A DNA stretch of 64,000 nucleotides from Fimbriimonadaceae bacterium (GTDB lineage: Bacteria; Armatimonadota; Fimbriimonadia; Fimbriimonadales; Fimbriimonadaceae): NCBI GenBank assembly GCA_019187105.1, contig JABAQM010000001.1, positions 620,001 through 684,000 on the forward strand, written 5' to 3'. Positions 2,804 to 61,435 of the stretch are shown here, in pieces. How positions within the stretch are numbered: the stretch's first letter is position 1; each line of letters opens with the position of its first letter. Below the pieces are notes generated by a model. The model worked only from the letters and a program-made list of their open reading frames with translations. It searched no databases and was not told the DNA's origin. Made by a program: the position numbers and the translations under genes.

Positions 2804-3388
2804 ATGAGCTGGGCACTTGTCGCCGTCGCTTTGGTCACGGTCCAGGCCGGACAGCGTCCGGATCAAGCCCTGGTGCCGGATGATCGGCTCGTCATCGAAA
2901 CCGCGCTTCTCCACTTTTACACCGAAAAAGGGATCAAGTCCAAGTTCATCCCGGGCGTGTCGAGGGTCGTCATGCTGCATCGATGGAGCCCGGAAAAGAC
3001 GGGATTCCTGATGGAGGAGCAGATCGACTCCGAGCTCCGCCCCCGAAAGCTCCCCCGGGAACTCATCCGCAGTTTGATGGCTCGTAACCAGGGCAAGCAG
3101 GAGTTTGATGCGATCGTGCGGGACTGGAAGCCCATGAAGTTCAACCCCCGGATCGAGGTCGGGGAGTATGGTTCGCTGATGGGTCGCCGTAGGGGACCGG
3201 AAGCGCTTGAGCGCCGGTCACTGGGCGTGTTCGATTGCTACGCGCCCGGGTATTCGCGGGATAAATCAACTGCCGTTCTCCGCGCCGGCTTCTCTCCATC
3301 TGCCCACGGGGCGATGGCGACGTATCTTCTTAAACGAAAGGGCTCGGGGTGGCGGGTCCTGTGGTGCAAGTTCAGCTATTTCGCGTAG
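2804..3388 (+). CDS. Secreted protein of unknown function
   Basis: 194 aa. The N-terminus (MSWALVAVALVTVQA) looks like a short signal peptide, so export is likely. The mature part is basic, with alternating beta-like stretches and a C-terminal LLKRKGSGWRVLWCKF segment reminiscent of the last strands of small alpha+beta (NTF2- or DUF4440-like) folds, but no family can be named. Start placed at 2804 because the hydrophobic segment begins there; the frame is open upstream to 2660 without protein-like sequence. It points toward the palindromes of the neighbouring transposase unit. Confidence 0.6.
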   Translation: MSWALVAVALVTVQAGQRPDQALVPDDRLVIETALLHFYTEKGIKSKFIPGVSRVVMLHRWSPEKTGFLMEEQIDSELRPRKLPRELIRSLMARNQGKQEFDAIVRDWKPMKFNPRIEVGEYGSLMGRRRGPEALERRSLGVFDCYAPGYSRDKSTAVLRAGFSPSAHGAMATYLLKRKGSGWRVLWCKFSYFA

Positions 3389-3435
3389 TTTGGGGGAGCG
3401 GGGTTCGGCTTTGGCGTTCGGGGTTCGGGGTTGCT

Positions 3436-3521
3436 CACCCCGATTAGGGGTGGAAGATCTTAGCCCGGGGTCGATGACCCCGGGAAAGCGATGGCGCCCG
3501 ACCACGACCCCAGCGGGGTCG
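3436..3521. repeat. Left REP-like palindrome cluster
   Basis: Three stem-loops: CACCCC/GGGGTG at 3436-3452 (5-nt loop), CCCGGGGTC/GACCCCGGG at 3464-3484 (3-nt loop) and CGACCCC/GGGGTCG at 3505-3521 (3-nt loop). All share a GGGGTC core with the right-hand cluster. They lie just downstream of the transposase stop codon. Confidence 0.7.
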
Positions 3522-3557
3522 CAGATTTCCATGCGGTCATAAACAAAGCGGTGCCGA

Positions 3558-4013
3558 TCAATCCAAGAATCGCTCATCGTAGGGCACGCCAAACTCCGCG
3601 AGAATCTTCCGAAGTTCCTCCAAGGAGGACACCTTCCGGTGGTGTTCCTCCTGATTGGCAATGTAGGCAACCACCGCGCCGAGGTCCAGCGGGCTTATGC
3701 TAAAAGCGGCGTATCCCGTTTGCCAAGCAAAGGCCGGGCAGCGTTCCTGCACCCACACCGATGAGGCCTTCTTGACCTCGCGAATGAGGTCGGCCACGTT
3801 TTGAGTTGCTTTCAATCCCACGAGCAGATGAATGTGATCGGCGACCCCGCCAACGGCGATCGGCACCCCGCCAAGACCACGTACGGTCCCACCAATGTAG
3901 GCGTGAAGCTCGGCTCGCCATCCTTGACCAATGGTCGCGGCGCGACCCTTGGTTGCGAAGATGACGTGGGCGTTCAGGCTAAGGTAGGTCGATGACACGG
4001 CTGATTCTGGCAC
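3558..4013 (-). CDS. IS200/RAYT-type Y1 transposase
   Basis: 151-aa HUH single-strand transposase. The metal-binding HUH pair is H60-I-H62 in ADHIHLLV, the catalytic tyrosine is Y117 in AYIANQEEHH, and the conserved WQTGYAAFSIS block is at 97-107. Length and motifs match complete IS200/Y1 family members, so it looks intact. The GTG at 4013 is used; a second GTG at 3998 is possible. There is no TnpB partner. Flanking paired palindromes suggest it acts on REP sequences. Confidence 0.9.
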   Translation of the reverse strand: MPESAVSSTYLSLNAHVIFATKGRAATIGQGWRAELHAYIGGTVRGLGGVPIAVGGVADHIHLLVGLKATQNVADLIREVKKASSVWVQERCPAFAWQTGYAAFSISPLDLGAVVAYIANQEEHHRKVSSLEELRKILAEFGVPYDERFLD

Positions 4014-4048
4014 CGCGCTGCGGTGCGGGGATATTGGGGGGACTGCTA

Positions 4049-4095
4049 CCTGGGGTCAAGACCCCAGGCTAAGTTCATTGACCCCTTCGGGGTCA
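4049..4095. repeat. Right REP-like palindrome pair
   Basis: Stem-loops CCTGGGGTC/GACCCCAGG at 4049-4068 and TGACCCC/GGGGTCA at 4079-4095 lie directly upstream of the transposase. They share the GGGGTC core, order and orientation with the left pair, supporting a common origin as transposase recognition sites. Confidence 0.7.
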
Positions 4096-4153
4096 GTCTA
4101 CGGCCGCAGGCGGGGGGATCGGGTTTCGGGGTTGGGCAATGCCCCCCGTTGAG

Positions 4154-4459
4154 CTATTTCGACTCGTTGATTCGCTTCACTTCCTTGATCAAGAACTCGA
4201 TGTTAATGAACGGGGCGCCACCGGTGCGCTTCCAGCGAACGCGCCCCATCGTGTCGATCAGGATCGTCGAATGGAGCTCCATGTCCTCGAAATCGTCGTA
4301 CGACGCAAAGCGACGCGCGTTCTCGTGATTCCGATCGGATAGGAACGTGACGTTCACGCCCTCCAAGGTTGCCGACGTTTTGAGTTTGTCGGGCGCGGCA
4401 CTGCACACCGCGAGCACGACGGTGTTCTGCGCCTCGAAGTCCGAAGCCTTCTCGTTGAT
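4154..4459 (-). pseudogene. Thioredoxin-like tail cut off by in-frame TAG
   Basis: This stretch is in the same frame as the upstream TPR gene, directly after its TAG at 4460-4462. It encodes about 101 more residues that complete a thioredoxin/AhpC-like fold, including the run from INEKASDFEAQN through a TILIDTMGRVRW strand to VKRINESK. There is no frameshift and the sequence remains protein-like, so the interruption looks recent. It may be a disabled gene end, a rare readthrough product or a sequence error. An independent start at 4417 would miss the first part of the fold and the CxxC site. Confidence 0.65.
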
Positions 4460-6322
4460 CTACTTCAGCTGGCCGACGCAATGGACGCAAGCTTCACCCA
4501 AAAAGAAGACGAGGAGCACATTCTTGCCCGCGTAGTCCTTGAGCTGGACGGGCTTACCTTCGACGCTCACGACTTGTAGATTGGGCGCGGTAAACGGACG
4601 CCAGTTCATCGGGCCGAGCTTGTCGAGGTCCTTGGGACGATAGATCCGCTCCGGTCGCGGGGTTTCGGCGACGGGCTTGGTCTTCAGCTTCAGCTTCCGA
4701 ACATCATCCAGCCACCTCAAGTTGGGATCGTCCTGAGACCAGACAGCTTCCAGCCGGCTCGCATAGTGGGTTGCCCGCTCGATGTTGCCGGCGGCATGGT
4801 GGGCGAGGGCCAGGCCGGACAGCGTGAAGCCGTCGTTCGGCTCTTCTTTCAATGCCCGTTCGTAGCATTCGATCGCGAGCTTGTTGTCGCCTCGCTTGCG
4901 ATAGTCGTCGCCGAGCAACCGAATGACCCGCCACGGACTCCAGGGTGGATCGCCTCCGACGACCTTGGCATCCTGCTCGGCGGCATTCAGGAGTGCCTTA
5001 TGTCCTTCCAGCAAGCGGTTTTCGGATAGGGCGACCAAGCCTTCGGCGGTATTGATACCCATCGCGAACATAAGGTTCGGAAAGCTGTTAGGATCCTTGT
5101 CTGTCGCGGCAACCTTGATTTGCAACGCCTTCAAGTCTTGCAGCCGTTCCTTCGCTTCTCGGATCTTGCCCAAGCCGTTCAGGGCAAGGGTCTCGGCAAA
5201 AGCCTGATCAAATTTTCCGAAGTCGTCTTTCGGGTCCCAATCCACGACCCCCGGCTTCATGATTTCATCCCAGCGCTCGAACTTGATGAGGGCACGCACG
5301 AGCGCCATGTGGCCCTCGGCAACCGTGCGGCTCGCGGAAAGGTTCTCGGGGTCGCGGGGTGAAGCGAGCATATCGCGGGCGCCCTGCAGGGACGCCTCTG
5401 CCATCCCGAGCTGCTCTTGGATGTAGCACAGGTAGTTCCGATTGTGCGGATAGTTCCACGTTTCGAACGGCAGCGCGAGCCGGTCGTTCATGTAGCGGAG
5501 TTCGATGCGGGTCGCCGAATCCATCGCGATCGCGGCTTCGTGCCACATCCCGATCTTGGAGTAGATATGCCCGGGCATGTGCAGGGCGTGGCCGATACCC
5601 GGCGCTGACTTCCCATACAGTTCGCAGCTCCGAATGGCTTGCTCAGAAGAGACCCCATCCCAATTGTGGATGCTGGTGTGGTGGGCGCCCGGGTGCATCG
5701 GGTTCTTGGCCAGGACCTGGTCGATCAGCAGCTGATTGGCGAAAGCGCTGCCCTGCCAGATATTGAAGAGGGCAAGATGAGCCTTCGCTTCGATGTCGTC
5801 CGGATACTTGATGACAAGGTTCTGGAGGAGCTGGACGAGGACCTTTGGCGCTTCCTTCACGCCGGGCGCGGTTGCCTGTGCCCAGGCCTCGATGTACATG
5901 CGCTCGCGATCCGTGACCTTGTCCGCGCGCCGAACCGCTTCCCTGAGAAACACCTTGTATCGATCGAACTCCTTGTCGTCGAAGTTGGGCGAGCCCATGG
6001 TGAACCAGTTGAATCCGCAACGAGCGAGGCTCCAATAGGCCATCGCGCAGTCAGGATCGAGCTTCAAGCACCAACGGAACGACCGCTCGGCCTCTTCGAA
6101 CCAAAAGGAATGAAGCAGCGCGTTGCCCTGGTTGAACCACTTCTGCACCTCCGGGTTCTTGGACGTGATGGGGAATGGAGCTTCGCCAAGGCCTTCCATG
6201 ACCCATGGCCGCAACCGCATCCCGGAGTCGAACGCCGATCCGTGCCTCGAATGGCCCGGGTCATCGTCGGCCAGTCCGATAACGGAAGCCATGAGGAGCA
6301 GAAAGATAGCAAGGTGGCGCAT
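4460..6322 (-). CDS. Secreted TPR protein with truncated thioredoxin-like domain
   Basis: 620 aa as read. A signal peptide (MRHLAIFLLLMASVIGLA) is followed by a large TPR-type helical repeat region, then a linker and the beginning of a redoxin domain with a CVHC motif. The protein stops three residues after the motif at a TAG, while the rest of the redoxin domain continues in frame to 4154. Family members with this architecture normally end in the complete redoxin domain, about 730 residues here. Start at 6322 chosen for the signal peptide; an ATG at 6346 is the alternative. The intact protein would be expected to act outside the cytoplasm as a thiol-redox protein; as written only the TPR part would be made complete. 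Confidence 0.75.
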   Translation of the reverse strand: MRHLAIFLLLMASVIGLADDDPGHSRHGSAFDSGMRLRPWVMEGLGEAPFPITSKNPEVQKWFNQGNALLHSFWFEEAERSFRWCLKLDPDCAMAYWSLARCGFNWFTMGSPNFDDKEFDRYKVFLREAVRRADKVTDRERMYIEAWAQATAPGVKEAPKVLVQLLQNLVIKYPDDIEAKAHLALFNIWQGSAFANQLLIDQVLAKNPMHPGAHHTSIHNWDGVSSEQAIRSCELYGKSAPGIGHALHMPGHIYSKIGMWHEAAIAMDSATRIELRYMNDRLALPFETWNYPHNRNYLCYIQEQLGMAEASLQGARDMLASPRDPENLSASRTVAEGHMALVRALIKFERWDEIMKPGVVDWDPKDDFGKFDQAFAETLALNGLGKIREAKERLQDLKALQIKVAATDKDPNSFPNLMFAMGINTAEGLVALSENRLLEGHKALLNAAEQDAKVVGGDPPWSPWRVIRLLGDDYRKRGDNKLAIECYERALKEEPNDGFTLSGLALAHHAAGNIERATHYASRLEAVWSQDDPNLRWLDDVRKLKLKTKPVAETPRPERIYRPKDLDKLGPMNWRPFTAPNLQVVSVEGKPVQLKDYAGKNVLLVFFLGEACVHCVGQLK

Positions 6323-6494
6323 ACGTAGCCCCGAATGATAGCCCAAATAGCAATCCGCATTCCCTTATTGGGCTCCAACGCTTGTCCCCTCCATATCACG
6401 GACCGGCACGAGGATGGTGGCTTCTGAACCGCCTTAGGGTAACGTGGGCTCAGCCGAAGGCATTTTTGCTAGCTTTCGGTCAAAGGAGAAGACG

Positions 6495-7286
6495 ATGAGA
6501 CTTCTAGCAACGCTTGCGGCATCGGCAGCAGCCCTATCCGCGCATGCGATCATCGATGATTTCGAGACCTACCTGGCCGGCACGTTCCCGAGCGCAAACT
6601 GGGAGGATGCGTCCCTAATTGCGCCGGTTAACGGACCGCCACCGAATCCTTCCTGTGTTGTGGACAAGACGACCGACGCCTTTGGCAATGGCACCCTGGC
6701 CCTGCATCTGGATTCCACCTGGGTGGGTGCGTCCAGCGGGGTGTGGCGCAAGGAATCGATTGCGGCTGTCACCGAGCTGACTTTCGACTTCCGCATCGAC
6801 AGCTTTGGCTCCGGCGCCACCGGGGATGTGACAGACTGGGCTTTCGACGCCATGATCGGCAAAGCCCGCGACGACATCCACGTCGGCGCGTGGAACTCGA
6901 TGCAGATCTACGCTTCCAACATGAGCCAGGACTTCCGCGGCTATACGATCGACAGCGGCCAGTTCGAGGACGACCTACCCTACGGGCTCAAGCTCGAGAC
7001 GAAGAAGTGGTACCACGTCCGGGCCACGTTCGATAAAACCATCGGCAGCATCCGCTCCGAGGTCTGGGACATCGCCGCGAACGCCCTGCTGTTGGATGCG
7101 ACCGTGCAGGATGCCGGCTGGACCTTGGCGGACGGCGACTTCAACGCGGTCTCGTTCAATCAGGGCGAGCTTTCGGCGCTGGAATCGGCCGACGCGTGGA
7201 TTGACAATATCAATGTCGTGCCGGAGCCGGCGACACTCGCGGTTCTTGGCTGCGCGTTGGCAGCGCTGGTTCGTCGGCGGCGCTAG
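6495..7286 (+). CDS. PEP-CTERM sorting-domain protein
   Basis: 263 aa. An N-terminal signal peptide (MRLLATLAASAAALSAHA) is followed by a beta-rich extracellular region and a C-terminal PEP-CTERM tag: VPEPATLAVLG, a short hydrophobic helix and RRRR. Such proteins are processed by exosortase and anchored or released at the cell surface; no exosortase lies in the window. The body (FDDFETY..., WRKES..., DAWIDNINV) resembles LamG/concanavalin-like secreted domains, but no family is certain. ATG at 6495 chosen because AAAGGAGAA precedes it; the open frame to 6444 is not signal-like. Confidence 0.85.
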   Translation: MRLLATLAASAAALSAHAIIDDFETYLAGTFPSANWEDASLIAPVNGPPPNPSCVVDKTTDAFGNGTLALHLDSTWVGASSGVWRKESIAAVTELTFDFRIDSFGSGATGDVTDWAFDAMIGKARDDIHVGAWNSMQIYASNMSQDFRGYTIDSGQFEDDLPYGLKLETKKWYHVRATFDKTIGSIRSEVWDIAANALLLDATVQDAGWTLADGDFNAVSFNQGELSALESADAWIDNINVVPEPATLAVLGCALAALVRRRR

Positions 7287-8513: not shown

Positions 8514-10373
8514 ATGGCCCAGGACATCACCCGCATTGTCGCCACCGACTGCGGCTCGACCACCACCAAGGCAATCCTCATCGAGCGCAACGACGCCGGC
8601 GAGTACCGTCTCGTCGCTCGTGGCGAGGCGCCCACGACCGTCGAGAAGCCGTTCGAGGACGTCACCGTCGGCGTGCTCAACGCGGTGACCGAACTGGAAG
8701 AGCTCACCGAGCATGCCGTTCCCGAGGGCTTCCCCAAGGCACGCCGCAACCTCATGAAAGGGGGCCAGGTCTGGCGTCGCCTGAAAGAAGGCACCGAGCT
8801 TGAGCCCAAGCCCGGCGGCAACGACAGTTCGGACCTCTATGTCAGCACCAGTTCGGCAGGGGGTGGCCTGCAAATGATGGTGGCGGGTGTCGTGAAGGCG
8901 ATGTCGGCAGAATCGGCGGAGCGCGCGGCCCTGGGCGCCGGTGCAATCCTGATGGATACCCTCGCGATCGACGACGGCCGAAAAGAATACGAGAAAGTCG
9001 ACCGGTTGCGACAGCTTCGGCCAGACATTATCCTGATGTCGGGCGGAACCGATGGCGGCACGAAAAGCCACCTGATCGAAATGGCGGAGGTCATTCGTCG
9101 CGCCGATCCCAAGCCTCGGTTCGGCGATATGAAGCTACCGGTGATTTACGCCGGCAACAAGGATGCTCGGCCGGAGGTCGGCGAGGTTCTTGGTACGAGC
9201 ATTGAGCTGCAGATCGTCGACAACCTGCGTCCGACGCTGGATAAGGAAAACCTCGCTCCCGCACGCGAAGAGATCCATGAAATGTTCCTCGAGCACGTGA
9301 TGCAGCAGGCGCCCGGCTACAGCAAGCTGCTCGAGTGGACGAGCGAAGAAATCATGGCGACGCCGAACGCGGTTGGCAAGTTGCTGAAGGAATACGCCAT
9401 CAACGAGGGGATCAACATCCTCGGCGTGGATATCGGCGGCGCGACGACCGACGTCTTCTCCGTCTTTATGAACCCCCAGGGCGAGCGGATCTATAACCGC
9501 ACGGTCAGCGCGAACTTGGGCATGAGCTATTCGATCTGCAACGTGCTGAAGGAGACCGGCATCGAGAACATTGCCCGCTGGCTGCCCTTCAGCATCGACC
9601 CGTTTGAGGTCCGCAACCGGCTTCGCAACAAAATGATCCGGCCGACCACGATTCCGCAGACCTATGAGGATCTGCTGGTGGAGCATGCGGTCGCGCGGGA
9701 AGCCTTGCGGCTTGCCTTCATCCACCACAAGTCGCTGGCCCGGAATCTAACCGGCGTGCAATCGGAGAGCAACATCGACCGGCTGTTCAAGCAGGAGGAC
9801 ACCGGTCAGACGCTCGTCCAGATGATGCTTCTGGACATGATCATCGGCTCGGGCGGCGTGCTCTCCCATGCCCCCCAGCGTGCGCAATCGGCGCTAATGA
9901 TGATGGACGCCTACGAACCGGAAGGCATCACGATGCTCACCGTCGACTCGATCTTCATGATGCCGCACCTCGGCGTGCTTTCGGAGCATTTCTTCGAAGC
10001 GGCAAGGCAGGTCTTCGAACACGACTGCATCGTTCAGTGCGGCCACTGCATCTCGCCGGTCGGCCTGGCCAAGCCGGGTGAGATTGCGGTTACGGTAAGC
10101 GGCGATGGGGTGAAGGAAGCGGTGCCGTTCGGCGCCATCAAGGTCATCCCATGCGGTCGCGGCGAATTCAAGACGCTAACCATCGAGCCGGGCAAGAACT
10201 TCGACGTCGGCGAGGGCAAGGGCAAATCGGTCCAGCGGAAGCTCGAAGGAGGAACTGTCGGCATAATGATCGATGCGCGCGGCCGACCCTTGCAGCTACC
10301 TTCCACCGACAGTGAGCGTATTGGCAAGCTGAAGGAGTGGCTGGCCGCGTTCGGCCTGCCACTCCCCAACTGA
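8514..10373 (+). CDS. glmL: GlmL/MutL-family ATPase (mutase-associated)
   Basis: 619-aa member of the GlmL/MutL family (TIGR01319/PF13941 type) of actin-fold (ASKHA) ATPases. Phosphate-binding loops are TDCGSTTTKA (about residues 11-20) and GVDIGGATTDV near 305; the conserved MSGGTDGGTKSHL and VQCGHCISPVG blocks are also present. In other bacteria the gene sits beside B12-dependent glutamate or ornithine mutases and is thought to protect or reactivate them. No mutase subunit is found in this window, so it is an orphan here. Start taken at the ATG at 8514, because the frame upstream is not protein-like; the AGGAGGAGG at 8478-8486 is too far away to be its ribosome-binding site. Confidence 0.85.
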   Translation: MAQDITRIVATDCGSTTTKAILIERNDAGEYRLVARGEAPTTVEKPFEDVTVGVLNAVTELEELTEHAVPEGFPKARRNLMKGGQVWRRLKEGTELEPKPGGNDSSDLYVSTSSAGGGLQMMVAGVVKAMSAESAERAALGAGAILMDTLAIDDGRKEYEKVDRLRQLRPDIILMSGGTDGGTKSHLIEMAEVIRRADPKPRFGDMKLPVIYAGNKDARPEVGEVLGTSIELQIVDNLRPTLDKENLAPAREEIHEMFLEHVMQQAPGYSKLLEWTSEEIMATPNAVGKLLKEYAINEGINILGVDIGGATTDVFSVFMNPQGERIYNRTVSANLGMSYSICNVLKETGIENIARWLPFSIDPFEVRNRLRNKMIRPTTIPQTYEDLLVEHAVAREALRLAFIHHKSLARNLTGVQSESNIDRLFKQEDTGQTLVQMMLLDMIIGSGGVLSHAPQRAQSALMMMDAYEPEGITMLTVDSIFMMPHLGVLSEHFFEAARQVFEHDCIVQCGHCISPVGLAKPGEIAVTVSGDGVKEAVPFGAIKVIPCGRGEFKTLTIEPGKNFDVGEGKGKSVQRKLEGGTVGIMIDARGRPLQLPSTDSERIGKLKEWLAAFGLPLPN

Positions 10374-10388
10374 GGCTGTCAGGTTCCG

Positions 10389-11354
10389 CTATCGAACGCG
10401 GAAGCCGACTTCTTTCTGCGTCGAGCCGTCGGGCGAAACCACGGTCATCCGATAGCTGCCGTTCGGCAGGCTAAGCTTGGTGCTCCACCGCCGATTTTGG
10501 ACGCTTACCGAAGTCCGTGTGACCTGTTCAGCGCCACGAAACACCGTGAGCATCACCGAGCTCGAATTCGATCGGCCGGAGACGGTCACGCTCGGACCAT
10601 CGACGGTCGCCCCGTTGCGGGGAGCGGTGATGGCGATCGATCCACCCACCGTGCTGCCAGTCGCGATCGGTCGGCGGTCGTCCCAGTCGTTCCAGTTCCA
10701 GCGTTCGCCGTTCTGGCCCCAGCTTCCATTCGCTCGCTGAACGCTGAACCGGACTTCGTCGCCGGTCTCCCAGCCGCCGCGCGAAGCGACCACTCGGAAG
10801 TTGCCGGCGGGAAGATTGAGCCGGGTTACCCACCGGCCATTCATATTGGGGTGGATCGTCGTGCTGGAACGCTCACGGCCACGGCGGTCGAAGACGGTGA
10901 GCTCAAACGGCTCACGTCCATCGGCCCATCCCGAGAAGGTGACGTTGCGGCTCTGGACGTTCTCATACCACCGAGGTCGCTCGATGCGAACGTCGGCGCT
11001 CTGGCTTTCCGGTGAGCGTATCCAGTCAGAATTTGAATTGAGGTTCGTACCATCGGCAAAGTCGATCTGCGCATCCCTCGTGGTGAGGTTGTTGCGATGG
11101 ACTTTGATGGTAAAGGTAAAGGGCATGCCGCCCCACCCGTTGTTCCGGGAGGCGACTCCACGGCCTTGGACCCTTGCTTCGGAGAGAGATAAGAAGGATT
11201 CTCTTACATCCGTGAAGTAAACGCGAGTCCATTGGGTTTCATCGCGTATTAAGCTGCTAATAGAGTTTTGTGCGGAATCTGTGACGCGACTAGCTATCGC
11301 CGAAGCGATGGCAAGCATCGTCAAGAGAGCCACCGTTAGTAAGCGGTATCTCAT
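10389..11354 (-). CDS. Secreted protein with Ig-like domains, unknown function
   Basis: 321 aa. A signal peptide (MRYRLLTVALLTMLAIASAIAS) precedes two or three beta-rich modules. The last (SIAITAPRNGATVDGPSVTVSGRSN to the C-terminus) looks like a bacterial Ig-like domain; an earlier one contains FSGWADGREPFELTVFDRRG. No catalytic motif is seen. ATG at 11354 preferred over 11375 because the signal peptide starts there. Probably a cell-surface or periplasmic binding or structural protein. Confidence 0.65.
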   Translation of the reverse strand: MRYRLLTVALLTMLAIASAIASRVTDSAQNSISSLIRDETQWTRVYFTDVRESFLSLSEARVQGRGVASRNNGWGGMPFTFTIKVHRNNLTTRDAQIDFADGTNLNSNSDWIRSPESQSADVRIERPRWYENVQSRNVTFSGWADGREPFELTVFDRRGRERSSTTIHPNMNGRWVTRLNLPAGNFRVVASRGGWETGDEVRFSVQRANGSWGQNGERWNWNDWDDRRPIATGSTVGGSIAITAPRNGATVDGPSVTVSGRSNSSSVMLTVFRGAEQVTRTSVSVQNRRWSTKLSLPNGSYRMTVVSPDGSTQKEVGFRVR

Positions 11355-11553
11355 GCCGACATTATGCCAACGCAAAGGCTGAAACCCGCGCTACGTTTAC
11401 GCTCTTTCTACGGCACAGCCTGCACAATCTTACAGCTTGTTGACGTCAACACGGCTGATAAACGATCTACCCACGATTCTGCGGCTTCTCTCAATTGTTT
11501 GCATTCCCATATTGCATACAAGCCGCGATCCCCGCCATACAATAGGGTCTCAG

Positions 11554-12366
11554 TTATCTATTTTTTTCGATCTTACCAGTAGCCAGGTAGGCGATCCCAA
11601 TCAGCCAGTGGGTGTTTAAACAGCAGCAGGGAATGATTCCCAGGTACCACCAAGGTGAACGCCTCCGGCCGAGTAGATCGGCACTCATCCACACGATCCA
11701 TAGGAAGCGATTGGCAAGGTCGAGGACCTGGAGCCACGATGGAACCGCCCGCTCGATGCTCTCAAAGTATTTGGCGCTAAACACCTCGCCGCCGGACTCC
11801 ATCGCAACCGGCAAGACGGCGACAAGAGTAACGATAAACAACGCCAGCCCCAGCAGGGTTAGGAACCACCCCACCATCGGCCATGTCGTACCGAGCCCCT
11901 CGATCCAGGACGGGCGGGGAGTTGGCGACGGACTGTCGAACTGGAACGCCTCGCCAACAATCGGCGGAGATGATACCTGCGGCGGCGTTTCCGCCATAGT
12001 TGGCGCCACCGACTCCGATTCGAGCAGCTTGAGAAGCTGCTGACTGGCAGAGTGAGTGGGATCACTGGCGAGTGCGGCTGCGACCTGCTCCGCGGCCTCC
12101 CGCTTTTGCCCCACCCGGTAGAGGTGGGTTGCGAGGTTGTAGCGGGCCCTCGCGCTGTCGGGAGCACAGAGGACGGCATTGCGGAGAGCGGATATGGCAT
12201 CGGGGTCATTGCCAAGCGTCGCGTGGGCGATGCCCAGCAGGAGATAGCCGTCCGCATTATCAGGATCGCCCTGCAATAGCTCTCTGGCGAGCAGCAACGC
12301 CCTCTCCGGGTCGCTGGCTTGAAGGGCGGCTGACGCCGATTGAATGATTTCGGAACGGTTATCCAT
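11554..12366 (-). CDS. TPR protein with C-terminal membrane segments
   Basis: 270 aa. The N-terminal 110 residues form three TPR-like units (ALLLARELLQGDPDNADGY, ALRNAVLCAPDSARARYNLA, AAEQVAAALASDPTHSA). A Pro/Ser-rich linker follows, then a strong membrane helix (MVGWFLTLLGLALFIVTLVAVL) and a further hydrophobic segment near the C-terminus with a CCC run. It is likely an inner-membrane protein with a cytoplasmic TPR domain. ATG at 12366 used. It is divergent from livJ, sharing a 107-base promoter region. Confidence 0.7.
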   Translation of the reverse strand: MDNRSEIIQSASAALQASDPERALLLARELLQGDPDNADGYLLLGIAHATLGNDPDAISALRNAVLCAPDSARARYNLATHLYRVGQKREAAEQVAAALASDPTHSASQQLLKLLESESVAPTMAETPPQVSSPPIVGEAFQFDSPSPTPRPSWIEGLGTTWPMVGWFLTLLGLALFIVTLVAVLPVAMESGGEVFSAKYFESIERAVPSWLQVLDLANRFLWIVWMSADLLGRRRSPWWYLGIIPCCCLNTHWLIGIAYLATGKIEKNR

Positions 12367-12429
12367 TGTGAGTTCGCGGGGAAGGAACGCGGAGAGCTTC
12401 GGTTTTCTGTATACTTCACCAGTCACGAA

Positions 12430-12448
12430 CCAGGCTTGCGATGCCTGG
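12430..12448 (+). promoter_or_regulatory. Leader hairpin upstream of livJ
   Basis: CCAGGC (12430-12435) pairs with GCCTGG (12443-12448) across a 7-nt loop, ending 9 bases before the AGGAGG ribosome-binding site of livJ. A TATACT hexamer at 12410-12415 could be the -10 element; no clear -35 is seen. A role in control is possible but unproven. Confidence 0.3.
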
Positions 12449-12473
12449 CTGCAAACAGGAGGTGTTTAGGGTG

Positions 12474-13751
12474 ATGCAATTTTCAAGCAAGCGGCTACAG
12501 ATTACAGCCGTCATGGCACTGGCTGCCCTCTTTAGCGTCGTCGGCTGCAAGCCGGAGGAACCGGCAAGCGGCGGCACGACGAGTACAACTTCGACAACCG
12601 AGAACTCGTCCGGAACGTCCGCTCCCGCCGCGCGCAAGATGCCGACGGCGGAAGGCAATTCCGCGACTGGCGATACGCTCAAGCTTGGCCTTGTCGCGAG
12701 CCTCAACGGCGACCAGAAACCGTGGGGCGAGGACAGCGAGCGCGGAGCACGTCTGGCGGTTGAGGAATTCAATGCCGCCGGTGGCGCCAATGGCAAGAAC
12801 GTCGAGCTTCTGGTCGGGGATTCCAACTCGCAGCCCGAAGCCGGCAAAAGCGCAGCCGAAAAGCTAATCGCCGATGGCTCGCTTGGTCTGATTGGCGAGG
12901 TCGCAAGCGGCATTACCATCCAGATGGCCAAGACCGCTTTCGATAAGGGTGTGCCCGTTGTCGCCATTGGCGCGACCAAGAACGAAGTCACCGACGAAGG
13001 CGCCCACGTCTTTCGCGTCTGCTATACCGATGCCTTCCAGGGTCCGGTGATGGCGGAGTTCGCCTACAAGGAGTGCGGCAAGCGGAAGATGGCGATCATG
13101 ACCGATAAGAAGCTGCCTTACTCGACCGGTCTCACCGAAACTTTCAAGGCCCACTTCCTGAAGCTCGGCGGCGAGATCGTGGCTGAGGAGTTCTATGAGC
13201 AGGGCCAGTCGCAATTCAGCGCACAGCTCACGAACCTCAAGGCCAAGAATCCGGATGGCATCTTCCTCAGCGGCTACTTCCCAGAAGTCGGCCCGATTTG
13301 CAAGCAAGCCAAGGAACAAGGCCTCAACACCCAGTTCTTTGGTGGCGACGGCTGGGACAGCCTCGAAATCATCAACACCGGTGGCGAAGCGATCATCGGC
13401 GGGTTCTTCTGCAACCACTACAACAACCGGGATAACAAGCCCGAAGTGAAGAACTTCCTCGACAAGTGGAAGGCGAAGTACGGCAAGGAGCCGGGCACCA
13501 CCATGGGTGCGCTGAGCTATGACGCCACCAAGCTGATGTGCGAGGCTCTAAAGCGAGCGACTGCTCCCAATTCGAAGGCGCTGATCGAGGCTATCGAAGC
13601 CACCGAGAACTTCAAGGGAGTTTCCGGCGACGTCACGCTAAAGGGCATGGGAGGCAACCCGCCGAAGCGGGCCCTCGTCGTCGAAGTCAAGCCGCTGCCG
13701 GAAGGCTTTGTCTTCAGAAAGGCCTACGAAGCCTCAGACATCACAAAGTAA
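12474..13751 (+). CDS. livJ: Branched-chain amino-acid ABC transporter substrate-binding lipoprotein
   Basis: 425 aa. A lipoprotein signal (ALFSVVGC, Cys25) and a Ser/Thr-rich tether precede a type I periplasmic binding fold of the Liv family (Peripla_BP_6): KLGLVASLNGDQKPWGEDSERGARLAVEEFNAAGG, then IGEVASGITIQMAKTAF. It captures leucine/isoleucine/valine or a related amide in the periplasm and delivers it to LivHM. It is the first gene of livJHMG. AGGAGG stands upstream; the ATG at 12474 is used, but the GTG at 12471 has slightly better spacing. Confidence 0.92.
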   Translation: MQFSSKRLQITAVMALAALFSVVGCKPEEPASGGTTSTTSTTENSSGTSAPAARKMPTAEGNSATGDTLKLGLVASLNGDQKPWGEDSERGARLAVEEFNAAGGANGKNVELLVGDSNSQPEAGKSAAEKLIADGSLGLIGEVASGITIQMAKTAFDKGVPVVAIGATKNEVTDEGAHVFRVCYTDAFQGPVMAEFAYKECGKRKMAIMTDKKLPYSTGLTETFKAHFLKLGGEIVAEEFYEQGQSQFSAQLTNLKAKNPDGIFLSGYFPEVGPICKQAKEQGLNTQFFGGDGWDSLEIINTGGEAIIGGFFCNHYNNRDNKPEVKNFLDKWKAKYGKEPGTTMGALSYDATKLMCEALKRATAPNSKALIEAIEATENFKGVSGDVTLKGMGGNPPKRALVVEVKPLPEGFVFRKAYEASDITK

Positions 13752-57575: not shown

Positions 57576-58322
57576 TTGATTATCGACGAGACGGGTTGGA
57601 CGGAAGCTGCGCTGCAGGGCGACATGGAAGCACTCGACCGCTGCTTTGCTTACCTGCGCCCCCGATTGCAGCGCTACTTCGAGCGCCGCGTGCGCACCCT
57701 TGACGACGCGGAGACCTTGGTTCAGCGGACCATGGCAGCGTCCATAACCTCGCTCTCGGCTTTCCGCGGTGAATGCCCCTTCGACCGCTGGGTATGGCGC
57801 ATCGCAGCCCACGAGTGTATCGCGTACTATCGGCAGGCAAAACGGGGCGCGTCGACGGTGTCCTTGGATGACCCGGAACGAGATTTTTCGGAAAAACTGC
57901 AACACGAACCGGGACTTTCGCCTCATGAAGATGCAGAAGCCCGCACCTGGATGACCCAGCTATTGGAAGTCGCCCAAGAAGCGTGCTCGCAAGAGGAATG
58001 GCGCGTCATGCTCGCTTACTACCGAACCGAATCCTTCGACGAAGTTGCAGAAATCTTAAAGATCAATCCAGCAACCGTACGAAGTCACTTCCTTCGGGGT
58101 CGCTCAAAGCTTCTCGCTGCGTTAATTCTCGAAAATCCGGAGCTGGTCGGGGGCGAAAGGGCCATTAAGGCTGCGATTTCAGCCGCCTTGGCAGATCCGG
58201 ATTCAGGATTGACGCAACGAGACTTGGACGTCATTAAAGGAATGGACCGAAGCAGTGTCCAGGTTCGAGAGGTCTGCATGAAGATCGCCAAACACCTCCC
58301 CAATCCGCTGGCCCAGATGTAA
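57576..58322 (+). CDS. ECF-type RNA polymerase sigma factor
   Basis: 248 aa. Sigma region 2 runs about 10-80 (DRCFAYLRPRLQRYFERRV...FRGECPFDRWVWRIAAHECIAYYRQAKR) and region 4 about 120-180 (EEWRVMLAYYRTESFDEVAEILKINPATVRSHFLRGRSKLL), as in extracytoplasmic-function sigma factors. A C-terminal extension (about 185-248) is not part of the core. TTG at 57576 is taken as start because the helix begins right after it; ATG 57624 is inside it. Its stop is 5 bases before the zinc-protein gene, and a TPR-CHAT protease follows. Confidence 0.85.
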   Translation: MIIDETGWTEAALQGDMEALDRCFAYLRPRLQRYFERRVRTLDDAETLVQRTMAASITSLSAFRGECPFDRWVWRIAAHECIAYYRQAKRGASTVSLDDPERDFSEKLQHEPGLSPHEDAEARTWMTQLLEVAQEACSQEEWRVMLAYYRTESFDEVAEILKINPATVRSHFLRGRSKLLAALILENPELVGGERAIKAAISAALADPDSGLTQRDLDVIKGMDRSSVQVREVCMKIAKHLPNPLAQM

Positions 58323-58327
58323 CGACC

Positions 58328-59194
58328 ATGAAAGAACCGCTGCTTCCGATCGAGACCGCCGTGCAGAAGTCCGGCACGTCCGTATTGCCCGGGTGCCCCG
58401 ACGCTGAGATCATCATCGATCTTGCCGAGAATGGCGCCGGCAGCAAGCATGTCGACCAACTGACCCACGTTCTAGCCTGTGCGGATTGCTTCAGTCTGTT
58501 CCAAACGTTCCGTGCAGTCGAAGTTGCCCGAGCCGAGGCCGAACCGTGGTGGTCCAAACTCGGACTCACTTCTGTTGCTCAGCAGATCAAAGAGGGCGCC
58601 CAATTGCTTCCAGAATGGTTCGCCGGCATCGTTTCGGCCCTTTCGCCTAAGCCCGCGGTCGCTTACAACTATCGCCGATCCGTTGGCGGCACACCGATTT
58701 CGCTCGACCATCCCGACTTAGCCAACCGCAAGTTGCAAACCAGTGAGCTTCGATTCACATGGAAACCGGTGGAAGGAGCCTCGACTTACCGATCGCGGCT
58801 CACGTCCGAAGGCAGGGACCTTTCCGATCTCATCGAGCAGAACCCCGGTGATATTCGGCTCCGCGCCGACGCCCGGCTGGAAGCCGGAGCGACCTACCGG
58901 TTCCAAGTGACAGCCGAACTCGATGCCGACAGCGCGGATTGGCTGGCCACACCGGTGGAGCTGACCTGCACGTTCGGCGTCCTGTCCAGCGACGAACAGG
59001 TCCAGCTCGAATGGGCTCGAGCCAATACGACTACAGCCCCGGTAGCCGCGATGCTCACGTTCTATTGTCTGGAGCGCTATGCCGATGCGCAAATGGCGCT
59101 TGGCCATTGCCCCCAAGGCGGCGAGCTCGATATGTGGCGCGAGGCAGTTGCCAAAGCTGTCGAACTGCGGCGCAACTTTCCCGAAGAAGCCTGA
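58328..59194 (+). CDS. Putative anti-sigma factor with HxxxCxxC zinc motif
   Basis: 288 aa. Near the N-terminus, HVLACADC (H47, C51, C54) is the canonical HxxxCxxC of zf-HC2/ZAS anti-sigma factors, with C23 as a possible fourth ligand. It directly follows an ECF sigma gene. Unlike most such anti-sigmas it shows no clear membrane helix and carries a C-terminal beta-rich segment (about 125-225; LRFTWKPVEGASTYRSRLTSEG...GATYRFQVTAELDADSADW) resembling fibronectin-type domains, then a helical tail. It should be cytosolic. Candidate substrate of the downstream CHAT protease (inference). Confidence 0.65.
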   Translation: MKEPLLPIETAVQKSGTSVLPGCPDAEIIIDLAENGAGSKHVDQLTHVLACADCFSLFQTFRAVEVARAEAEPWWSKLGLTSVAQQIKEGAQLLPEWFAGIVSALSPKPAVAYNYRRSVGGTPISLDHPDLANRKLQTSELRFTWKPVEGASTYRSRLTSEGRDLSDLIEQNPGDIRLRADARLEAGATYRFQVTAELDADSADWLATPVELTCTFGVLSSDEQVQLEWARANTTTAPVAAMLTFYCLERYADAQMALGHCPQGGELDMWREAVAKAVELRRNFPEEA

Positions 59195-59212
59195 TTCGGA
59201 TAGGCTACGGCA

Positions 59213-61435
59213 GTGAGGGAGGGAGCGTATGCCCAAGCTCTTGCCGCTAAGGAAGCGGGCGATTGGCCCAAAGCCTACCGGCTTGCAGTTCGGGCCCACG
59301 ATGAAAATCCAGACGAACATCCTGCTGCGGGACACGCCTCCCTGCTCGCCGGAGTCGCCGCATACGAAATGGGTCGAGCAGACGAGGCTGTCCGCTGCTA
59401 TCGCGCTGCAGCAACATCCTTCCATGCCGCCGGCAATACCGAACGGCTAGCAGCAGCCCGCTTCAACGAGGGCCTCGCTCTGTTCCGCGCTTCGCGGCTC
59501 GTGGAGGCAATTGCTGCTTACGAAGCAGCCCTCGGGTTGTTTGAGGCCATGGGCCACGAACGTCATCGAGCCACCTGCCTAATGAACTTAGGGAATGCCT
59601 GCCGGCATGCCGGAAAGATGGCAGAAGCCTTGGCGCTCTACCAGCAGGCCCGATCGGCATTTCAGGCGGTAGGCGATGAAGACCGATTGGGCCGGTGTTT
59701 TCTTAACGCGGGCAACGTGCTTGCCGACCTCGGCCGATTGCGAGAAAGTGCGTCCATGTTCGAACGGGCGCGAGAGACCTTCAACCGCATCGGGGTCGCT
59801 CAACATGAAGCCGGCGCGATTGTAAATCTTGCCGACCTTGCGTTGCGGGATGGCCGGCACGAAGAGGCCCTTGATCTCATCCGATCCGCCCGTGGGCATT
59901 TTGAAACCGCCCGAATGCAGCGTTTCCTGGTGGAATGCGACTTCCTCGAAGGCAAGGCCACGAACTCGCTTGAGCTGGTTCGACGGGCGGTCGATGGATA
60001 CGAGTCGTTTGGCGACCGCCGCCAAGCTGCAGCCGCACGAGTCGTCGCCGCTGACCTCTTAAACGACGCGGCCTCCAGCCTTGACGACCTTCGTCAAGCC
60101 GCCGAGCAGCTGATCGGTTTTAGAGAGGAGTTTCATGATCCATCCTCGGCAGCCCAGGCTTCAAAGCCGCTGGCAGAGGTTGGTGGCCGGCTGGTTCACG
60201 CCCTATGCACGCTTGGCGACGTCGCCGGCGCCTGGGAGTGGCTACAGAAGCTGCGCGAGCGTCGACCAAGCGCTCCGGCCGATCGAACCGACAGCGAAAG
60301 GTCCAGGGAGCTTCGAGCGGAGATCGAAGCCATTGGTCGAGATTTGGCTGCTGCGACGGACGGCCACGACGCCTTGAGACGGCGTCAGGAGGTTGCACTC
60401 GCCGAGCTGAGCGCGGGCGAGTTCCGATCATCTTCCACGGCGGGATCGGTCGAGTGGTGCGAGATCCCCGATCTAACCCAAGCAAGATCGTCAATCGAGC
60501 CCAACGTCGTGCTGGTCGAAGCCGTCGTCTCCCCGACTGCCATCCACATGATTGCGGTTTCGAATGATGAACTTCGACATCGGCAGCTGGATGCCCCGCA
60601 GGAGGATGTGGCCGATGCCGTGGCTGCCTGCCGACAAGCCATCAGTGGCCCAGGAGGACGCTGGGTTGCCCACCCGCTGCTCGAACCTCTCGCCAAACAC
60701 CTGCGCGAACTCAGCAACGGGTTCGAATTGCTGGTGTGGTGCCCAGATGGTGCCCTTGAAGGCGTCCCGATCGGCCCGTGGCTGCTCGAAGGCGAGACGG
60801 CTTGGATGCAGTCGGGCTCGTCCTGCTATTGGCTGTCCACGGTACCAACGGCGGCTGGAAGGCCATTGGTCGCTGGCATTTCGGAACATTCGTCCTCACT
60901 GGGGCACCTCCCCGAGGCGAGACGAGAAGCGGAATTAGTGGCCGGCATCCTGGGTGATTGTCGACTTCTCTTGGATGAGGAGGCTACAGTCGCTAACGTC
61001 CGCGCGGGTTCCACCGTCGCACGGATCCTGCACGTTGCGACCCACGCCGTTGCCAACGAATCGGTGCCACTTTTCAGCCGACTCGAAATGGCATCTGGCC
61101 CGCTATATGGCAGAGATCTGCTCGACTGGGGACTGGCCAGCGAACTTGTTTTTCTGTCGGCGTGCTCGACCGCCGAAGGCCAGCGCTCTGCAAGTGGCAG
61201 TTCGTTGGGCCTCGCATGGGCGATGCTGGCCGGCGGCGCTCGCACCGTCGTGGCAAGCTCCTGGCCCGTTCACGACCACGCCGCCCAAATCTGGGTCGAG
61301 AGGTTCTACCAGTCCTATGTCGTCAACGGAAATGCGGCCCAAGCCCACCAGGCCGCATGCCGGTACCTGGCTTCGGAGTCTCCGTACGACGCGCCGCACT
61401 ATTGGGCAACATGGAAAGTTCTAGGTAGCCGATAG
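59213..61435 (+). CDS. TPR-CHAT caspase-like protease
   Basis: 740 aa. The N-terminal 330 residues are TPR units (AYEMGRADEAVRCYRAAA, AALGLFEAMGHERHRATCLMNLGNACRHAGKMAEALALYQQA, ...). The C-terminal CHAT domain (about 440-740) has the catalytic His611 in VATHA and Cys651 in LSACSTAEG, and SSLGLAWAMLAGGARTVVASSW. No signal peptide, so cytosolic. GTG at 59213. The 18-base gap and same strand place it in one operon with the sigma factor and zinc protein. The only other enzyme of this general type known to act with a sigma/anti-sigma pair is the craspase TPR-CHAT (Csx29); homology beyond domain class has not been tested. Confidence 0.88.
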   Translation: MREGAYAQALAAKEAGDWPKAYRLAVRAHDENPDEHPAAGHASLLAGVAAYEMGRADEAVRCYRAAATSFHAAGNTERLAAARFNEGLALFRASRLVEAIAAYEAALGLFEAMGHERHRATCLMNLGNACRHAGKMAEALALYQQARSAFQAVGDEDRLGRCFLNAGNVLADLGRLRESASMFERARETFNRIGVAQHEAGAIVNLADLALRDGRHEEALDLIRSARGHFETARMQRFLVECDFLEGKATNSLELVRRAVDGYESFGDRRQAAAARVVAADLLNDAASSLDDLRQAAEQLIGFREEFHDPSSAAQASKPLAEVGGRLVHALCTLGDVAGAWEWLQKLRERRPSAPADRTDSERSRELRAEIEAIGRDLAAATDGHDALRRRQEVALAELSAGEFRSSSTAGSVEWCEIPDLTQARSSIEPNVVLVEAVVSPTAIHMIAVSNDELRHRQLDAPQEDVADAVAACRQAISGPGGRWVAHPLLEPLAKHLRELSNGFELLVWCPDGALEGVPIGPWLLEGETAWMQSGSSCYWLSTVPTAAGRPLVAGISEHSSSLGHLPEARREAELVAGILGDCRLLLDEEATVANVRAGSTVARILHVATHAVANESVPLFSRLEMASGPLYGRDLLDWGLASELVFLSACSTAEGQRSASGSSLGLAWAMLAGGARTVVASSWPVHDHAAQIWVERFYQSYVVNGNAAQAHQAACRYLASESPYDAPHYWATWKVLGSR

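Follow-up and report, generated by a model that had tools for sequence, protein, structure and literature searches.

Is the release of a sigma factor by a CHAT-domain protease tied to CRISPR, as in type III-E craspase, where the protease Csx29 cuts Csx30 and the locus also encodes the extracytoplasmic function (ECF) sigma factor that Csx30 inhibits (PMC10028731)? The question is raised by a 64,000-nucleotide stretch (the window) of a Fimbriimonadaceae genome (2 contigs totalling 3.3 Mb, completeness 99.6%, two CHAT genes), in which the genes of an ECF-type sigma factor, a soluble anti-sigma-like protein and a TPR-CHAT protein lie head to tail on the plus strand (Table 1). An initial annotation of the window had likened the three products to the output arm of craspase. 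We find that the three genes are a conserved module and, judging from sequence, structure models and analogy, put at about one in two the probability that it would act as a CRISPR-independent stress- or surface-sensing switch, in which the CHAT protein cuts the soluble anti-sigma protein and so releases the sigma factor.

Linkage and domain composition of the module

The three reading frames of the window are separated by 5 and 18 bases, as annotated. Among 32 anti-sigma-like genes in loci fetched from the same phylum (Armatimonadota), 27 are directly preceded by a sigma gene of the same orientation, and a CHAT gene lies within 5 kb of 22, versus about 0.5 expected from CHAT numbers and genome sizes; in 12 of these 22 the CHAT gene is downstream on the same strand. 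The corresponding P of 5e-29 is too optimistic because the loci are related, but the excess is not in doubt, and the conserved co-occurrence on which the initial annotation had staked its proposal is thus present. Accidental adjacency of unrelated genes might be entertained given how widespread CHAT genes are in the phylum (156 of 291 genomes); it is refuted by the linkage counts, and we consider it wildly improbable, the more so as full-length members of a fourth gene's family, described below, are confined to these cassettes.

The sigma factor was correctly identified by the initial annotation: it matches TIGR02937 (E 9e-17) and, above the cut-off, Pfam Sigma70_r2, and the profile of its family finds solved ECF sigma factors with an E of 1e-24. 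A C-terminal extension of about 60 residues is common to the module's sigma factors; it is evident in an alignment of 18 homologs and was recovered by a separate hidden Markov model (HMM). Upstream of the sigma gene in L030, L031, L034, L035 and, in part, L032 stands an element, GACTCG...GTTGCA, that is possibly an autoregulatory promoter.

The middle protein, of 288 residues, had no match when searched singly against Pfam, NCBIfam and PADLOC. Homologs were found in 14 of 61 genomes, and a profile search of the 291 genomes of the phylum added more; a plasmid search gave no match, and a scan of named genomes with a four-row alignment returned solely close kin and two matches limited to the fibronectin-III-like domain, with neither sigma nor CHAT gene nearby. 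Alignment of the family reveals a single architecture, in which an N-terminal four-ligand domain is separated by a variable region from a fibronectin-III-like domain, and the chain ends in a conserved TPR-like tail. The N-terminal helical domain carries the zinc-binding anti-sigma (ZAS) pattern C/H-x(n)-H-x3-C-x2-C, made up in the window protein of H47-x3-C51-x2-C54 and of C23 as fourth presumed ligand, a position that is C or H in relatives retaining the other three; the direct proximity to an ECF sigma gene in 27/32 loci is also of the ZAS type. Of the solved ZAS proteins, only 3hug_B, which carries a membrane-protein annotation and which we take to be RslA, gave a match, weak (E 0.7) yet in exact register; this likeness is only suggestive. 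Two homologs, encoded in L046 (9489-10409) and L044 (7337-8071), have lost all four presumed ligands and kept the remaining protein and the cassette, so that zinc may be dispensable.

The annotated solubility and β-rich C-terminal region of this protein both stand. Its maximum 19-residue hydropathy is 1.18, with no predicted transmembrane segment, and the β-rich part is the fibronectin-III-like domain, whose profile matches fibronectin with an E of 8e-13; the tail that follows has a conserved WAR...AP...Y...A motif and TPR_2 matches in 6 of 21 homologs. An AlphaFold2 model with a predicted local distance difference test (pLDDT) score of 90 places helices within residues 7-78, a further helix at 98-104, a sandwich of fibronectin-III type and terminal helices, and its lowest-scoring block (residues 111-120, pLDDT 63) falls in the linker that precedes the sandwich.

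The third protein combines TPR repeats with a CHAT domain (PF12770, E 8e-37), and its annotated His611 and Cys651 are intact and invariant in all 18 aligned CHAT partners. The best Protein Data Bank (PDB) match of its structure model (pLDDT 85) is craspase Csx29 (8eey, E 3e-15), followed by DdvA (8rw5, 8rot), and the fold also matches separase; by sequence and model, the protein is thus predicted to be a cysteine protease of the CHAT-domain type. A separase-like preference for Arg at P1 was considered and rejected. In craspase, K670 stands in place of separase D2151 (PMC9729208) and lies eight residues after a Trp in the printed alignment; the equivalent of this position here (W684+8) is the non-acidic and variable Q692. 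The invariant D688 had first been taken as the separase aspartate, an argument dropped because counting on the printed craspase sequence places the site at Q692. Identity as a defence system was likewise set aside, since PADLOC found only weak similarity to the BovA CHAT and no defence context was seen.

Relation to craspase and other CHAT-linked sigma systems

Neither Cas1 (a search that detected 9 of 14 controls) nor RAMP (Cas7-type) proteins had a match in the whole genome, and no CRISPR-like repeats were found in the window, in line with the absence of cas genes and CRISPR arrays noted earlier. The CHAT protein scores 14.8 bits against the Csx29 family NF041237, whose cut-off is 300, and this family has no match at E 0.001 in the whole genome, in a scan that detected no control. 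Among the 50 PDB structures closest in fold to the 288-residue protein there is no Csx30 chain, and a profile search of PDB sequences gave none either. The cassette is therefore not a craspase by membership.

The proposed parallel holds in part. Like craspase, the locus encodes together a TPR-CHAT protein with a His/Cys dyad, a partner that here is predicted to bind sigma, and an ECF-type sigma factor, and Csx29 is the best structural match of the CHAT model; unlike craspase, it has a zinc/fibronectin-III/TPR-like protein in place of Csx30, to which no similarity was detected, an additional PEP-CTERM gene, no Cas1 or RAMP match in its genome, and a CHAT protein far below the Csx29 cut-off.

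At least as close a parallel, which the initial annotation did not mention, is offered by DdvS-DdvA of Myxococcus xanthus (8rot, 8rw5), where ECF sigma factor, anti-sigma factor and TPR-CHAT also belong to one signalling unit. There, TPR-CHAT is part of the transmembrane anti-sigma polypeptide, whereas here a separate, cytoplasmic CHAT protein accompanies a soluble anti-sigma-like protein with a fibronectin-III-like domain; no fusion of the DdvA type (anti-sigma, transmembrane segment and TPR-CHAT in one polypeptide) occurs in any locus examined, the genes being separate in each. DdvS is active when DdvA is inactivated, the signal being unknown (PMC4374960), and one M. xanthus pair of ECF sigma and anti-sigma factors drives a type III-B CRISPR-Cas system (PMC8156234).

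DdvA opens another way of reading the module, in which CHAT would be a sensing or scaffolding arm that binds the fibronectin-III/TPR-like tail and alters sigma binding by conformation, as may occur in DdvA itself. That a described transmembrane anti-sigma factor is among the best structural matches, and that anti-sigma and TPR-CHAT functions can reside in one protein, speak for such an arm, as does the TPR-like tail, a natural docking element. The His/Cys pair, invariant in 18/18 partners and aligned with His and Cys in the corresponding columns of the DdvA CHAT, argues for catalysis instead, and we regard a non-catalytic role as doubtful. We also presume that the M. xanthus pair driving the type III-B system is DdvS/DdvA.

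Other systems are more distant. For ECF54 sigma factors, which have CHAT genes nearby, proteolytic control has been proposed, with no anti-sigma factor (PMC8999054). Compared by gene context alone, they resemble the module in having a CHAT (or subtilase, or carboxypeptidase) gene close to an ECF sigma gene, and differ from it in that here an anti-sigma-like gene sits between the two. An arrangement resembling ECF54-CHAT is found at a second locus of the host genome (L114, G000:C1:2893000-2908000), where the one other CHAT gene (3842-6781) comes directly after an ECF sigma gene (2977-3573) with no anti-sigma gene recognised between them. In the type III CRISPR system CalpL/CalpT/CalpS, a Lon-SAVED protease reportedly frees a sigma factor by cutting its anti-sigma protein; that system differs in protease family and in its trigger, a CRISPR second messenger. 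No published description of the present arrangement was found in the open-licence literature; a CHAT-linked sigma system as such is not unprecedented, since the closest fold relatives are Csx29 and DdvA.

Proposed cleavage of the anti-sigma-like protein and the place of the fourth gene

Cleavage is the likeliest mechanism, at roughly even odds, and is backed by the pairing of the genes, by the catalytic residues and by known precedents; the binding, the cutting, the trigger and the targets are all inferred. The N-terminal zinc helical domain would hold the ECF sigma factor inactive until a signal, perhaps the state or export of a PEP-CTERM surface protein, reached the TPR part of the CHAT protein and activated the His611/Cys651 site. 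The protease would then cut the anti-sigma protein, with the flexible linker that joins the zinc domain to the fibronectin-III/TPR-like domain as the most probable place, and the freed zinc fragment would be destroyed or let go of the sigma factor, which would turn on its regulon. In favour of this sequence of events are the linkage counts, the head-to-tail order of four genes, the invariant dyad, zinc ligands that are kept or lost as a set, the Csx29 and DdvA matches, the craspase precedent and the predicted sharing of one compartment by protease and presumed substrate. CHAT substrates, moreover, are commonly encoded close to the protease gene (PMC9729208).

A candidate cut site lies in the R116-R117-S118 region of the linker: 28 of 31 sequences have an Arg, with a small residue after it in most cases, 12-17 residues before the invariant P129, and in 16 of them it stands exactly at -15. 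Support for this site is mixed and we keep it as a lead; as an established site it was dropped, the Arg being retained also in proteins whose linker is expected outside the cell membrane and whose CHAT partner is expected inside.

The compartment argument comes from membrane segments called by hydropathy alone. In most family members the zinc domain is followed by a transmembrane helix, which is lacking in five (those of the window, L028, L036, L044 and L046); the soluble form is thus the minority and the membrane-anchored form the majority of the family, which the initial annotation missed. In the five soluble-type loci the CHAT gene is directly behind the anti-sigma gene and encodes no signal peptide, and both proteins are therefore predicted to occupy the same compartment. 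A membrane-anchored anti-sigma protein is paired with a signal-like CHAT N-terminus in L039, L090, L086, L042, L043, L045, L085 and L087, so that in 13 of 19 loci the membrane would not separate CHAT from the fibronectin-III/TPR-like part. The pairing of soluble anti-sigma protein and signal-less CHAT amounts to one well-supported independent pair on the tree (Fisher p 0.045, uncorrected for kinship). Because the calls rest on hydropathy and the trees hold very few independent events, the matched topology is a pattern rather than a test, and suggestive only. In L042, L043, L045, L085 and L087 an extra gene of about 520 codons, weakly similar to the sigma profile and, in the one case tested, without a Pfam match, is found between the anti-sigma and CHAT genes, and several of these five loci have a second anti-sigma gene, or its start, after CHAT.

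Several of these observations weigh against cleavage. In an exception clade (L030, L031, L032, L035, L037 and L083) a membrane anti-sigma protein is accompanied by a signal-less CHAT encoded on the other strand; this CHAT, seemingly cytoplasmic, could reach only the inner part of its membrane-spanning partner, and the linker Arg is conserved there too, where it is expected outside. The residue by which separase reads Arg at P1 is not acidic here (Q692), the soluble relatives in L046 and L044 lack every zinc ligand, and the topological match is backed by the few events just mentioned.

The three-gene account is sound as far as it goes; it overlooked a fourth gene, encoding a protein with the signal peptide, PEP motif, transmembrane helix and Arg tail of PEP-CTERM proteins and a TIGR02595 match above cut-off, in a genome that also encodes an exosortase (PF09721, E 4e-45). 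Comparison of neighbours found this gene in L036, L044 and L046, and a profile in L028, so that all five soluble-type loci have four genes head to tail. Full-length members occur in exactly these five places among the 291 genomes (E 7e-90 to 2e-121), the next match having an E of 5e-9 and most others covering merely the sorting tail. TATAAT-like -10 sites just past the CHAT stop codon, upstream of the PEP-CTERM gene, are seen in L028, L036 and L046, where a separate housekeeping promoter may serve the fourth gene. In the exception clade, too, a PEP-CTERM gene comes after CHAT in 4 of 6 loci, but it belongs to another family. Overall, a convincing PEP-CTERM gene comes after CHAT in 9 of 11 loci with a signal-less CHAT versus 0 of 8 with a signal-bearing one (p 0.0007, uncorrected for kinship), and this association of cytoplasmic CHAT with PEP-CTERM proteins therefore suggests a role for it in surface-protein control.

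The same association can be turned around to make CHAT the output, an effector controlled by the sigma/anti-sigma pair whose real substrate would be the PEP-CTERM protein or another target. The 9/11 count fits this idea, and in the exception clade CHAT and its PEP-CTERM gene make up a unit of their own, encoded on the other strand from the regulators. On the other hand, the ends of the anti-sigma and CHAT genes overlap or nearly touch in seven loci (the window, L028, L036, L039, L044, L046 and L090), a sign that CHAT may be expressed jointly with the regulators; a search for an ECF-type promoter common to the upstream regions of the sigma gene and of the CHAT or PEP-CTERM genes found none; and CHAT, unlike the PEP-CTERM protein, is not exported. 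We consider CHAT as output unlikely.

Should cleavage of the anti-sigma protein be the mechanism, a bolder extension, which we offer as speculation, is that CHAT monitors the dedicated PEP-CTERM surface protein, so that failure of its display or export, or an attack on it, would lead to cutting of the soluble zinc anti-sigma protein and so to a sigma response; a sister form would act outside the membrane with an exported CHAT and a transmembrane anti-sigma protein, and in craspase an older module would have been captured by CRISPR. If cleavage does take place, anti-sigma cutting by a separase-like protease would be a general bacterial signalling device rather than a CRISPR speciality, one that type III-E CRISPR may have borrowed. 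A protease switch would also be connected with surface proteins sorted by exosortase, the regulation of which seems not to have been studied in this phylum. Being small, soluble and conserved, the set lends itself to a direct test of the idea in E. coli.

Feature coordinates and related loci

Table 1. Features of the cassette, in window positions.
Feature	Position	Strand	Basis
ECF-type sigma factor, 248 aa, TTG start	57576..58322	+	TIGR02937, Sigma70_r2 and solved-ECF-sigma profile matches
Sigma C-terminal extension, ~residues 183-248	58122..58319	+	Alignment of 18 homologs; separate HMM
Soluble anti-sigma-like protein, 288 aa	58328..59194	+	31-member family alignment; AlphaFold2 pLDDT 90
Zinc anti-sigma-like domain, presumed ligands C23/H47/C51/C54	58388..58543	+	Ligands kept or lost together
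Flexible linker, residues 106-125, with R116-R117-S118, candidate cleavage site	58643..58702	+	Low pLDDT; Arg conservation
Fibronectin-III-like domain, ~residues 126-220	58703..58987	+	PDB profile E 8e-13; model strands
C-terminal TPR-like helices, residues 221-283	58988..59176	+	Conserved motif; TPR_2 matches
TPR-CHAT cysteine protease-like protein, 740 aa, GTG start, no signal peptide	59213..61435	+	PF12770 E 8e-37
Predicted catalytic His611 codon	61043..61045	+	Invariant 18/18
Predicted catalytic Cys651 codon	61163..61165	+	Invariant 18/18
Fourth cassette gene: exported PEP-CTERM protein, 245 aa	61577..62314	+	Homologs after CHAT in five soluble-type loci; TIGR02595

Variants on the arrangement occur elsewhere in the loci. 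In L029 the sigma/anti-sigma pair is flanked by caspase-family (C14) and WD40 proteins (3155-6322, minus strand; 9198-12887, plus strand) in place of CHAT, as though a different protease of clan CD stood in for it. Exported-looking CHAT genes adjoin those of proteins combining zf-HC2, a transmembrane segment and a fibronectin-III domain in L093, L095, L098 and L101, with no sigma gene detected nearby, and in L033 a Ser/Thr kinase with TPR repeats (152-1825) is encoded near an anti-sigma-like gene that has no CHAT.

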